Part shown: one piece after another, positions 652 through 20,978 of the stretch
Numbering within the stretch: the first letter of the stretch is position 1
How the letters are laid out: each line of letters begins with the position of its first letter
Assembly: GCA_025454475.1 (NCBI GenBank)
Contig: JALOOJ010000078.1
Span: 1 to 33,154, forward strand
DNA from: Anaerolineae bacterium
GTDB lineage: Bacteria > Chloroflexota > Anaerolineae > B4-G1 > SLSP01
Length of the DNA: 33,154 nt
Reading direction: 5' to 3'
Translations under genes and position numbers: made by a program
Notes under the pieces: model-generated
Seen by the model: the letters and a program-made list of their open reading frames with translations, nothing else
The model's database searches: none
What the model was told of the DNA's origin: nothing

Positions 652-1440
652 ATGACGAACGAGATCCACTATTCGGTATTCACGAAACCCTGGAAGACGA
701 TCGACCTGGCGCGCCTTGGGGCCTTCGTCAATGGTCTTGGATTTGACGGAATCGAGCTCCCGGTGCGGCCTGGTTATCAAGTTGAGCCGGAGGCCGTAGC
801 AAACCTGCCCGAGGCTGCTCGGACTCTGGGCGAGTTCGGCGTCAGCATCTATAGTATCGCGGGGCCGACCGATGAGGCGACGATCGCTGCGTGTGCAGAG
901 GCCGGCGTGCCGGTCATCCGGGTCATGGCCCCGGTCGACTATGGGGAGCCGTACTTGGCGGCTGAGGCACGCTATCGGCGGGCCTACGACGCGCTGATTC
1001 CGCTGCTAGACAAGTACGGCGTGCAGCTCGGCGTGCAGAATCACAATGGCCGTTTCGTAGCCAACGCAGTCGGGCTGAAGCGGCTCGTGGAGGGGTACGA
1101 TCCACGACATATCGGTATCGTCTGGGACGCAGCCCACGAGGCGCTCAACGGTATGGACGTCGACCTGGCACTGGATGCGGCGTGGTCGCATCTGTGCATG
1201 GTGAACCTGAAAAACGCGTACTGGCGGCGTACGAGCGGTCCTGAGGCTGAGTTGGCGACGTGGCAGGTCTACTGGACGACAGGCCCGCAGGGGAGGGCGT
1301 CGTGGCCAAGGGTGGCCGGTGAGTTGCAGGTTCGTGGATATGCTGGGGTCGTGTGTCTGACTGCGGAATACAGCGATGAGGGGGCCGTTGATAGGCTGAT
1401 CGCCCAGGACATCGCGTTCGCAAAGGGGCTGTTCGCGTGA
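652..1440 (+). CDS. Sugar phosphate isomerase/epimerase-like TIM-barrel protein
   Basis: A 262-residue xylose-isomerase-like TIM barrel (AP endonuclease 2 superfamily), usually a cytoplasmic metal-dependent isomerase, epimerase, dehydratase or lyase acting on sugars or inositols. Candidate metal or catalytic residues lie at strand ends: Glu35 (GIEL), His131 in VQNHNGRF, Asp159 and His162 in IVWDAAH, Lys187 in VNLKN, and Glu239 in LTAEY. The ATG at 652 has GGAGG seven bases upstream. The stop overlaps a GTG in the following Gfo/Idh/MocA gene, so the two are translationally close and probably act on the same compound. Such isomerase-like/dehydrogenase pairs occur in inositol and 3-keto-glycoside metabolism; the exact reaction cannot be read from sequence. 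Confidence 0.85.
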   Translation: MTNEIHYSVFTKPWKTIDLARLGAFVNGLGFDGIELPVRPGYQVEPEAVANLPEAARTLGEFGVSIYSIAGPTDEATIAACAEAGVPVIRVMAPVDYGEPYLAAEARYRRAYDALIPLLDKYGVQLGVQNHNGRFVANAVGLKRLVEGYDPRHIGIVWDAAHEALNGMDVDLALDAAWSHLCMVNLKNAYWRRTSGPEAELATWQVYWTTGPQGRASWPRVAGELQVRGYAGVVCLTAEYSDEGAVDRLIAQDIAFAKGLFA

Positions 1441-1463
1441 CGGGGCGAGGGATGGAGGATGAG

Positions 1464-2474
1464 ATGAAGGCTCGCATTACCCTTGCGAAGGTGCCGGCAC
1501 CTTCGCAAGGTCCGCTGGTTAGGGTTGCGATGATTGGCGCCGGGGTCATGTCCAACAGAGTGCACTACCCTTCGTTGGCATCGTTCGATGATGTCGAGAT
1601 TGCGGCCATTTGTGATATCGACACCCAGAGGCTGAACACGACGGCGGATCGTTATGGCGTCGAGCGGCGATACGTGGACTACCGGAAGATGATCGAGGAC
1701 GTCGCGCCGGACGCGGTCTACGCCATCGGGCAGCCGCATATCTTCTACGATATCTGGACCTGGTGCCTGCGGCAGGGGCAGAACCTGTATATCGAGAAAC
1801 CAATGGGCCTGTCGATTCATCAGGCACGCTCGCTGGCGTATCTGGCTGAGCAGAAGGGCTGTATTACCCAGGTGAGCTTTCAGCGCCGATCGAGCCCGAT
1901 GGTTGCCAAGTTGCGTGAGATGTGCCTGGCACGCGGCCCGATCGTGCACGCCGTCTGCCGCTTCTACAAGTGCGCCATCGATCCTTACCTTGAGGCGCGC
2001 GATCACATGATGGATGATGGTGTGCACGCCATCGACACGTTGCGCTGGATGTGCGGAGGAGAGGTGGCTGACATTCACAGCGTTACCAGGCGCGTGTTGG
2101 TCCCCGACGCGAACTTCTTCGCGGTGATGTTGGAGTTCGACAATGGTGCAACCGGGCTGATGGTCAATAGCTGGACCAGCGGCAGGCGGATTTTCGACGT
2201 GGAGATGCACGCCCCCGGCATCTGCGTTGAGGCGGAGCACGAGGGGAAGGCGAGGCTATTCGCGGATGGTGACACAGTGGGTGTTGAGTATGACAGCCGC
2301 GAGCTTGCTGGGGGCGACGAGTTCTATGTGTACGGGGGATTCCAGGCCAAGAACCGTGAGTTCATCGATTGCCTGAAGACGGACACGCTGCCGGGCTCGC
2401 ACTTCGGCGATGCCGTCAAGACGATGGAGGTTGCCGAGCGAATCCTGGCGCAGTCGACGCTGCGTGGCGTGTAG
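1464..2474 (+). CDS. Gfo/Idh/MocA family oxidoreductase
   Basis: NAD(P)-dependent sugar or inositol dehydrogenase of the Gfo/Idh/MocA family, 336 residues from the chosen ATG. Rossmann motif GAGVMS (25-30), signature EKP (111-113) with the catalytic Lys, and DDGVHAIDTLRW (184-195) containing the catalytic Asp/His pair typical of the family. GGAGG at 1454-1458 lies five bases before ATG 1464; the upstream in-frame GTG at 1437 overlaps the previous stop and would add nine residues. Residues 6-16 are encoded by a perfect 30-bp palindrome, giving an unusual N-terminal extension before the Rossmann beta-strand. It is the last + strand gene before a convergent boundary. Family is firm, substrate unknown. 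Confidence 0.9.
   Translation: MKARITLAKVPAPSQGPLVRVAMIGAGVMSNRVHYPSLASFDDVEIAAICDIDTQRLNTTADRYGVERRYVDYRKMIEDVAPDAVYAIGQPHIFYDIWTWCLRQGQNLYIEKPMGLSIHQARSLAYLAEQKGCITQVSFQRRSSPMVAKLREMCLARGPIVHAVCRFYKCAIDPYLEARDHMMDDGVHAIDTLRWMCGGEVADIHSVTRRVLVPDANFFAVMLEFDNGATGLMVNSWTSGRRIFDVEMHAPGICVEAEHEGKARLFADGDTVGVEYDSRELAGGDEFYVYGGFQAKNREFIDCLKTDTLPGSHFGDAVKTMEVAERILAQSTLRGV
1481..1510. repeat. Perfect 30-bp palindrome inside a coding region
   Basis: The left arm CCTTGCGAAGGTGCC (1481-1495) is followed at once by its exact reverse complement (1496-1510), with no spacer. It encodes residues 6-16 of the Gfo/Idh/MocA protein. The outer part also contains the smaller self-complementary CCTTGCGAAGG, so several foldings are possible. 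It may be an inserted palindromic element, a protein-binding site or a leader structure covering the start of the gene. Confidence 0.92.
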
Positions 2475-5692: not shown

Positions 5693-7090
5693 CTAGACGC
5701 GCACATAGTCCACCCCCAGGAGCGCGGCCAGCTTCTCCAGTGTGCTACCCCAGTGCCCATAGGCAAGGGCTTGGTGATGCGATCCCCCGGCAAGGCTGAA
5801 GCGGGTGAGGAACCCGGGAAGCCCATCGGGGCTTCCCGGGCGGAACATGAAGTGAGGGCGGCCCAGATCGGAAACGTAGGGGAAATCCATGACCTCGCCC
5901 TCGGCTACTACGAAGCGTAGTTTTCCCTCAGAGCCTGTCGTCAGGCTCAGCAATGTAACCTCGCCGGGTTCCAGGCTGAAGGCCAGCAGGAGCGGCGCGA
6001 CTTTCAGATCGATGAGACCTAGTGTGCTGCGCAGCATATGGACGGGCGCATCTTTGCGGGCCATCTTCCAGTTGCCCTCGCCCATGTGCATCATAAGGAC
6101 TGCGTCGTGGGCCGGGTCCATTGTGAACATCTCGGTGAAGTTCGCCGCGCCCGCGAGACCCGCCATCAGTGCTGTGGCGGAGGCGCTCGTCACATCACCC
6201 TCACCGCCAAACCCATAGCCCTCGCCTAGCAGCTTCGCCGCTGCCAGAAAGGGCAACGTCTCCATCCACCCCTCCTCACCGACCGCCACAAAGTGCGCCG
6301 CAAAGCCATGAAGGCCTTTCTCCTGGATCGCCATCCGGAGCGCCCACTCCAGCCGTGAGCTCGCTTCATGCTCACGCTCGGTGATACTGCTGTCGACCGC
6401 GAAGCCTAACCTGTCATCTGCCATCTGCTTTGTGATGGCCTCCGCTGGCGCAGTCCTGGCAAGCGCAGCGATCTCCTTCATAGCCAGATGATGGACTTCA
6501 GCGCCCATCTGTGCAAGGAGTGCTGTCTGGTCGATGCCAAAGTCGCCCATTCCTTCCATCGGATATCCAAGGAGCCCGATGCGCATGCGCCGGGCAGCGC
6601 GCACGGCCTGTGCTGCCCGGCACCAACTTGCAGTCTCGGCAAGCGCACGCTCGTCCTGGTAATGGCCCGTGACCAGGTGGATAGGGCGTCCAGCACGTAA
6701 CAACACATTGCACAGGTCCTGTACGCCGTGCATGCCGTGGTTCCGTAGTGTCTCCTCACTGGTCACATTTGGGGTGATGGATTGCAGCTGTTGGGTGTTG
6801 AAGATGACGACGGGTAGCCGCGTGCGCAGCAGGGCGGGGAGGGCGATATGGCTGGGCGCGTAGGTTAGGAGGACCACGATGATCAGGTCTTTGTCGTCAG
6901 CCTCAAACGCTGCTACTGCCTGGTCCACCTGATCTCGAGTGCTGCACACACCAGGGAAGTCCACCTTTGCGACGGGGGATAGTGATTGTACAAGCTCCTC
7001 AGCAAACGCCGCCATTCGCGGCTTGAGATCGGGCAGAGCATCGTAGAGCTCCAGCATCAGGCCGAGAAGCCCAACTTTCGCTTGCTGCAT
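5693..7090 (-). CDS. L-arabinose/L-fucose isomerase-like protein
   Basis: A 465-residue protein with the fold and ligands of the L-arabinose isomerase (AraA)/fucose isomerase superfamily, which converts aldoses to ketoses with Mn2+. The expected metal ligands are visible: Glu297 in GGEGDVTSA, Glu320 in NFTEMF, His335 in MMHMGEGNWK and His438/439 in GSHHQ. Length is slightly below E. coli AraA (500) and overall similarity looks remote, so the substrate need not be arabinose. GGAGGA lies nine bases before the ATG. It sits 20 bases after the FGGY kinase gene and 7 bases before the aminotransferase gene, so isomerisation followed by phosphorylation of a sugar is the natural reading. Confidence 0.85.
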   Translation of the reverse strand: MQQAKVGLLGLMLELYDALPDLKPRMAAFAEELVQSLSPVAKVDFPGVCSTRDQVDQAVAAFEADDKDLIIVVLLTYAPSHIALPALLRTRLPVVIFNTQQLQSITPNVTSEETLRNHGMHGVQDLCNVLLRAGRPIHLVTGHYQDERALAETASWCRAAQAVRAARRMRIGLLGYPMEGMGDFGIDQTALLAQMGAEVHHLAMKEIAALARTAPAEAITKQMADDRLGFAVDSSITEREHEASSRLEWALRMAIQEKGLHGFAAHFVAVGEEGWMETLPFLAAAKLLGEGYGFGGEGDVTSASATALMAGLAGAANFTEMFTMDPAHDAVLMMHMGEGNWKMARKDAPVHMLRSTLGLIDLKVAPLLLAFSLEPGEVTLLSLTTGSEGKLRFVVAEGEVMDFPYVSDLGRPHFMFRPGSPDGLPGFLTRFSLAGGSHHQALAYGHWGSTLEKLAALLGVDYVRV

Positions 7091-20027: not shown

Positions 20028-20055
20028 GTGTTAGCGCTAACGGTAACGCTAACAC
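20028..20055. promoter_or_regulatory. LacI-type palindromic operator, double overlapping site
   Basis: GTTAGCGCTAAC (20030-20041) is a perfect 12-bp palindrome with the central CG typical of LacI-family operators. A second half-site, CGCTAACAC (20047-20055), is the exact inverse of GTGTTAGCG (20028-20036), so two overlapping symmetric arrangements exist. It overlaps the +1 region of the promoter and precedes a LacI-type gene by about 37 bases, so that regulator is its probable ligand. Confidence 0.85.
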
Positions 20056-20091: not shown

Positions 20092-20978
20092 GTGTCGGAT
20101 TCCGCGAGACCACCCGATCGTGTGACGATCGCCGACGTCGCTCGTGAAGTCGGCGTGTCGATGATGACGATCTCCCGCGTGATCAATGGGAAGGATGATG
20201 TTAGCGCTGCGACACGACAGCGCGTCCTTGACGCCATCGAGCGTATGGGGTACCGGCCGAGCAGCATTGCACGCGGTCTGGCGACGCGTCACACGGGCAC
20301 GTTGGGTCTTGTGGTCCCCGATATCGCCAACCCATTCTTTTCTGAGGTGGCCCGCGGCGTCGAACAGGTGGCCTATGCCCAAGGGTACAACGTCTTCCTG
20401 TGCAACACGGATGAGGACCCTGCGAGAGAGCTGGACGTCCTAGGCTCGCTGGAGGAGAAGCGAGTTGACGGGATTCTGCTCTGCAGCTCGCGGTTGAGTG
20501 ACGAAGACCTGCAGATGGTCGTGGATTCGTGCCCTGCCGTGGTGTTGGTCAACCGGCGCATGCGGTCAGAACCGGCGTCAGAACCGGCGTCAGAACCGGC
20601 GGCCTGCCGCGCGCAGATGGGTGGACTGAGCCATGTGCGCCGACCGCGGAGCAGGGCAGGATCGCGGCGGCCCAGGCGCTCCATCGACATCCGGAACTGA
20701 CGGCGCTGATCTGCCACAATGACCTGGTAGCCGTGGGGGCACTGCACGCCTGTCGGGAAATGGGGCGTCGCGTCCCCGATGATTTGGCGATCGTGGGCTT
20801 TGATGACATCCCCATCGCCTCACTGGTCACGCCGGCGTTGACGACCTGTCGGATTCCACGACACGCGCTGGGCGCGACGGCAATGGAGTTGCTCTTGGAC
20901 CGGATCCGTGGCGATGAGGCGGTTGTGCGGGAGACCGTCCTGGAACCGGAGCTTGTGGTGCGGGCGAGTGCGCCATAG
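20092..20978 (+). pseudogene. LacI-family transcriptional regulator, internally deleted and frameshifted
   Basis: The N-terminal part is a normal LacI repressor: helix-turn-helix VTIADVAREVGVSMMTISRV (11-30), hinge helix YRPSSIARGLATR (54-66), then the sugar-binding domain beginning GTLGLVVPDIANPFF. Homology stops after VVLVNRRM (about residue 157). Next come three 12-bp hairpin units read as SEPASEPASEPA, and this frame ends at 20700 in unrelated residues. In the +2-shifted frame, LacI homology resumes directly after the array (GLPRADGW, TAEQGRIAAA, LTALICHNDLVAVGAL, LAIVGFDDIP) and runs to 20978. Compared with typical LacI proteins about 55-60 residues around the SVxxD...GHRRIA region are missing. 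It is therefore probably inactive as an effector-responsive repressor, unless the junction is an assembly error. The uronate genes downstream are its likely targets. Confidence 0.85.
20563..20600 (+). repeat. Three-unit CAGA-loop hairpin array inside LacI gene
   Basis: Three units with TCAG cores at exact 12-bp steps (T at 20566, 20578, 20590), each giving GTCAGAACCGGC. The first is a perfect CGGT CAGA ACCG stem-loop. The array lies exactly at the point where LacI homology is interrupted and the frame changes. Confidence 0.92.

Follow-up and report, generated by a model that had tools for sequence, protein, structure and literature searches.

A perfect palindrome in the first codons of a Chloroflexota oxidoreductase gene is probably a copy of a small dispersed hairpin-repeat family

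A gene for a Gfo/Idh/MocA-family oxidoreductase carries a perfect 30-bp palindrome among its first codons in the window (the whole 33,154-nucleotide stretch of DNA analyzed here). With a probability of roughly 0.7, we read this palindrome as a copy of a low-copy, dispersed hairpin family of about 30 bp that normally lies between genes and that has here been inserted into the N-terminal linker of the enzyme. The family is small and has not been listed before, and its hairpin repeats are scattered over the genome of this uncultured member of the Chloroflexota. The palindrome shares its arms with copies whose flanks are unrelated, the other copies are intergenic by habit, and the linker is shorter in congeners. 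It would plainly exemplify a very short hairpin repeat turned coding, in a lineage for which descriptions of such repeats are scarce.

The palindrome reads CCTTGCGAAGGTGCC followed directly by GGCACCTTCGCAAGG (window positions 1481-1510), with 15-bp arms that are 100% complementary and a spacer of 0 nt. The bases that border it, C1480 and T1511, are unpaired. With ATG1464 as the start, the palindrome begins 14 nt past the start codon and spans codons 6 to 16. An earlier, sequence-only reading of this DNA had described a perfect 30-bp spacerless palindrome in residues 6 to 16, about 15 nt past the start, and both parts of that description hold with this start codon. Further in-frame starts of the gene are present upstream (ATG1452 and GTG1437). 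A start below the palindrome, which would leave the palindrome untranslated, was considered and rejected: the sole later in-frame ATG lies within VRVAMIGAG, the first beta strand, and CTG1515 would be an uncommon start codon. Since a start moved past the palindrome would cut the first Rossmann strand, ATG1464 was kept. Coordinates are collected in Table 1.

Table 1. Positions of the hairpin element, its parts, and the neighboring gene features in the window
Feature	Positions	Strand	Remark
Dispersed hairpin element, window copy	1481..1510	.	Perfect 30-bp palindrome
Family left arm, CCTTGCGAAGG	1481..1491	+	Conserved; alignment of 9 copies
Family loop, window copy TGCCGGCA	1492..1499	+	Self-complementary; different in each copy
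Family right arm, CCTTCGCAAGG	1500..1510	+	Conserved; alignment of 9 copies
Host gene, Gfo/Idh/MocA-family oxidoreductase	1464..2474	+	Most likely start ATG1464
Shine-Dalgarno-like GGAGG	1454..1458	+	5 nt ahead of ATG1464
Upstream gene, xylose-isomerase-like TIM barrel	652..1440	+	23 nt before ATG1464

The window is one contig of the palindrome's own genome (G000; 4.8 Mb in 369 contigs), which was compared with those of four congeners (G001 to G004). A DNA similarity search with 321 nt around the palindrome as the query matched about nine places in the own genome, with 79 to 89% identity over approximately 28 to 42 nt; the best other copy had an E value of 1e-4. The matching contigs were C300, C331, C274, C208, C197, C312, C205, and C79, and the closest congener, G004, also matched on contig C156. 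The family consensus consists of CCTTGCGAAGG, about 8 variable bases, and CCTTCGCAAGG. When nine copies were aligned, the arms were nearly invariant and the flanks were unrelated beyond one or two bases. Most copies measure exactly 11 + 8 + 11 = 30 bp, and the spacer ranges from 8 to 11 nt. A pattern of exact arms found 3 copies in the own genome and 2 in G004, thereby adding the second G004 copy; the same pattern had 0 copies in the three other congeners, and its reversed control had 0 matches. The exact sequence CCTTGCGAAGG occurred 15 times in 1.54 Mb, versus a mean of 1.3 and a maximum of 8 for 300 scrambles.

Searches of the own genome and the genus for an exact match, or for one with up to 3 mismatches, found the palindrome at this site only. 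Divergence of the loop between copies made these strict searches wrongly suggest a unique sequence. A palindrome that seems unique under strict search can be a diverged repeat copy, and a verdict of absence elsewhere would be wrong here, since diverged copies exist. Exact searches of viral contigs gave no match to the element, and a plasmid search gave weak, partial matches only. The window copy is spacerless because its 8-nt loop, TGCCGGCA, is itself self-complementary; with about 10 copies and freely varying loops, one perfect 30-bp copy would be unsurprising. It is hardly credible that an inverted fold-back in the metagenome assembly created the palindrome. Such an artifact might be looked for in an assembly this fragmented, but the arms match independent loci as well as another species' assembly, and the reading frame is kept.

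Gene context was available for five other copies in the own genome, and 5/5 were intergenic, between unidirectional or convergent genes (one of them between convergent genes), with 0 between divergent genes. The copies on C274 and C79 fall outside that comparison, and the context of the G004 and C331 copies was judged solely from open frames. The window copy alone was seen to lie in a gene. This distribution bears on the idea that the family is a set of operator sites, each made of two conserved half-sites and bound by a transcription factor, which we regard as very improbable. Conserved half-sites around a variable center and a handful of intergenic copies would fit operators, but the variation of the spacer from 8 to 11 nt would break helical phasing, and one copy lies between convergent genes and none between divergent genes. 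The window copy, moreover, lies within a coding sequence that appears to belong to an operon, and nothing promoter-like matched in its vicinity.

The palindrome is not a product of chance, though this genome is rich in long perfect hairpins. Spacerless palindromes with arms of at least 15 nt were seen 5 times in 1.24 Mb of the own genome, versus 0.0023 expected from base composition. Perfect inverted repeats within genes, with arms of at least 12 nt, numbered 14, versus 0.8 in synonymous-codon shuffles. Perfect hairpins with arms of at least 12 nt and a spacer of at most 8 nt numbered 104 in 1.54 Mb, with 86 intergenic and 16 in called genes, as judged by a simple, purpose-written codon-usage gene caller. 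The sequence-only reading had argued that such palindromes are unstable in many bacteria and that retention of this one suggests recent insertion or selection. The step from instability to selection is not supported: the own genome has other palindromes of at least 30 bp. Palindrome lethality and SbcCD-dependent instability concern much longer palindromes, and we know of no evidence that palindromes of about 30 bp are unstable enough to require selection for their retention. The well-studied chromosomal palindrome of E. coli measures 460 bp (PMC4245961).

Other inverted repeats are present in the window. At 20028-20055, GTGTTAGCGCTA and TAACGCTAACAC form a repeat that is 92% complementary and resembles a LacI-type operator; downstream of it, at 20122-20700, lies a short LacI-family regulator of 192 aa, probably truncated. 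A perfect hairpin with 12-bp arms and a 4-nt loop (CCCGGGAAGCCC/GGGCTTCCCGGG; 5813-5840) is found toward the 3' end of a minus-strand gene (5693-7090) that is arabinose/fucose-isomerase-like, a short distance from where the next gene begins.

Among hairpins of the own genome, the loop TTTCCGC is common to several dispersed intergenic families with different stems (11/162 intergenic hairpins). Examples are L197 10267-10298, L129 2198-2229 and 2334-2365, L237 11079-11112, L187 4033-4064, and L178 7067-7098, and the C300 copy of the palindrome's own family likewise has a TTTCCGC loop. These families possibly form a superfamily with interchangeable stems. A broader proposal, that the genus has untagged, transposase-orphan hairpins with varied stems and, in several families, the shared TTTCCGC loop, which spread as loop-recognized single-strand hairpins and occasionally land in frame and lengthen protein N termini, is tentative and on balance rather unlikely.

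The host protein differs from its relatives at the site of the palindrome. Most of its closest named relatives belong to metagenome assemblies of Chloroflexota (Anaerolineae, Thermoflexales), and most relatives align from VRVAMIGAG onward only. The linker ahead of that motif is 18 aa in the window protein, 7 in G003, 7 in G002, and 5 in G001; over 81 relatives, a set with partly redundant rows, its median length is 6 residues. The linkers of these three congeners are thus 11 to 13 residues shorter, and with ten residues removed the window protein would be about as long as those of the congeners. None of the 81 relatives (0/81) has a hairpin with arms of at least 8 in the linker. An ortholog of the upstream TIM barrel gene is present in 4/4 congeners and lies immediately upstream of the oxidoreductase gene in G002 and G003. 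In G004, the orthologous linker (end of contig C84; L270, 1-77) consists of an 18-bp tandem array of 4.3 perfect copies, encoding ARNVRV repeats. The array runs off the contig end, and the remainder of the oxidoreductase gene begins on another contig. The linker site tolerates length change through unrelated routes, a hairpin element here and a tandem array in G004, which makes it a natural testing ground within one genus.

These data suggest that a copy of the hairpin family entered the N-terminal linker codons of the oxidoreductase gene after the species split from the sequenced congeners. A recent insertion had been proposed from the sequence, and the dispersed family and the linker 11 to 13 residues shorter in congeners support the insertion. 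The element would have moved as a unit, carried either by an HUH/Y1 transposase acting in trans or by template switching. Since the 30-nt element has no stop codon in any forward frame, its insertion would have kept the reading frame and harmlessly added ten residues to a dispensable leader, with a small effect on the enzyme and its translation. Against this reading, no target-site duplication was found and there is no clean empty site, the linker being too variable to align and, in G004, a tandem array; the low copy number for a REP family and the lack of a REP tag also weigh against it. Two Y1-transposase-like genes (PF01797 matches) are present in G000, at C332:2400-2741 and C61:24403-24633. 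Separately, G001 has 26 PF01797 matches, many of them broken by stops, versus 1 or 2 per genome elsewhere in the genus, possibly reflecting a recent IS200/IS605-like expansion.

Alternatively, the palindrome could have arisen in place by replication template switching, whether one arm was copied in inverted orientation or a quasi-palindrome was corrected, and without a mobile element. We consider this origin unlikely. The excess of perfect inverted repeats within genes noted above is in its favor, and perfect stems are known to result from a single template-switching event (PMC8794818). In an aldolase-type gene (L155, 6494-6521), two congeners share a Glu codon that is Lys in this genome, and this change completes a perfect hairpin with 12-bp arms, consistent with the expected footprint of quasi-palindrome correction. 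Template switching could also explain the perfect loop of the window copy. It leaves unexplained, however, why the 11-bp arms are found again elsewhere in the genome between flanks that are unrelated and why the net gain in the linker is about 30 rather than 15 nt. A comparison with relatives for an imperfect ancestral version of the palindrome is limited by the linker itself, which is not alignable across relatives and is a tandem array in G004.

As RNA, the element spans coding positions +18 to +47 and is predicted to form a hairpin of 13 bp around a CCGG loop, at -22.7 kcal/mol when folded alone. The earlier suggestion that this hairpin could block initiation is not borne out by predicted folding, in which the hairpin folds on itself downstream, forms no base pairs with the ribosome-binding site, and leaves that site no less open. 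Opening of positions -15 to +15 is predicted to cost 9.4 kcal/mol, versus 10.7 +- 2.6 for shuffled versions of the 30-mer and 11.9 with the element absent. Little effect on initiation would be expected from this model, and the window copy probably does little in its host gene. That the palindrome acts in cis as an RNA hairpin, tuning how the oxidoreductase mRNA is translated or how stable it is, is a doubtful reading, less probable than an origin in place. The strength of the predicted hairpin would suit it, as would the bias of perfect inverted repeats within genes toward the first 150 nt (12/41 with arms of at least 10 in the 1.54-Mb sample; p = 0.005), to which start misannotation may add. 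The palindrome is located where the footprint of the initiating 30S subunit ends, or past that point, however, and the predicted opening cost is not raised. In addition, the relatives have no hairpin at this site, sister copies are not generally at gene starts, and an Rfam search gave no match at the palindrome (an implausible, sub-threshold snoRNA match lay just downstream).

Among known systems, the family most resembles REP elements, which are hairpins of 20 to 40 bp with a stem of about 11 bp and a variable loop; the element here is 30 bp with, mostly, an 8-nt loop. Like REPs, it is dispersed with unrelated flanks, and its other copies lie between unidirectional or convergent genes. REPs are found mainly in such positions and occasionally in ORFs, often N-terminally; GTAG REPs have been reported in Chloroflexi, and REP families of 20 to 100 units or fewer are allowed (PMC3733652). 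The same source warns that some REPs at ORF N termini may be untranslated, with the start misplaced (PMC3733652). Unlike GTAG/CGTC REPs, the family has no GTAG or CGTC tag, and no tag is common to the flanks of the 9 copies. REPs also run to tens to thousands of copies, whereas this family numbers about 10 (approximately 9 places in the 4.8-Mb genome). Association with a RAYT (Y1) transposase flanked by the repeat is a further trait of REPs, and the two PF01797 matches in G000 may or may not be linked to the element. Because the tag and the high copy number are absent and the RAYT link is undecided, the element is best filed as a REP-like interspersed palindrome and not as a REP.

Other comparisons are less close. 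Intrinsic transcription terminators are likewise G+C-rich hairpins, and other copies often lie downstream of genes; a terminator was rejected here on the grounds that no T run follows the stem (TCCGCTGG), that the element is at a gene start, and that there is no terminator-like match. Template-switch hairpins and quasi-palindrome correction products are also perfect inverted repeats that form hairpins (PMC8794818), but they are single-locus products, whereas this element has sister copies with unrelated flanks. Rickettsia palindromic elements (RPEs) are, like the window copy, palindromic repeats that are translated in frame within protein-coding genes. Classical RPEs measure about 150 bp (PMC10969869) and have many intragenic copies, whereas the present element is 30 bp with a single intragenic copy seen. 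RPEs are the closest precedent for an in-frame hairpin repeat, though several times longer.
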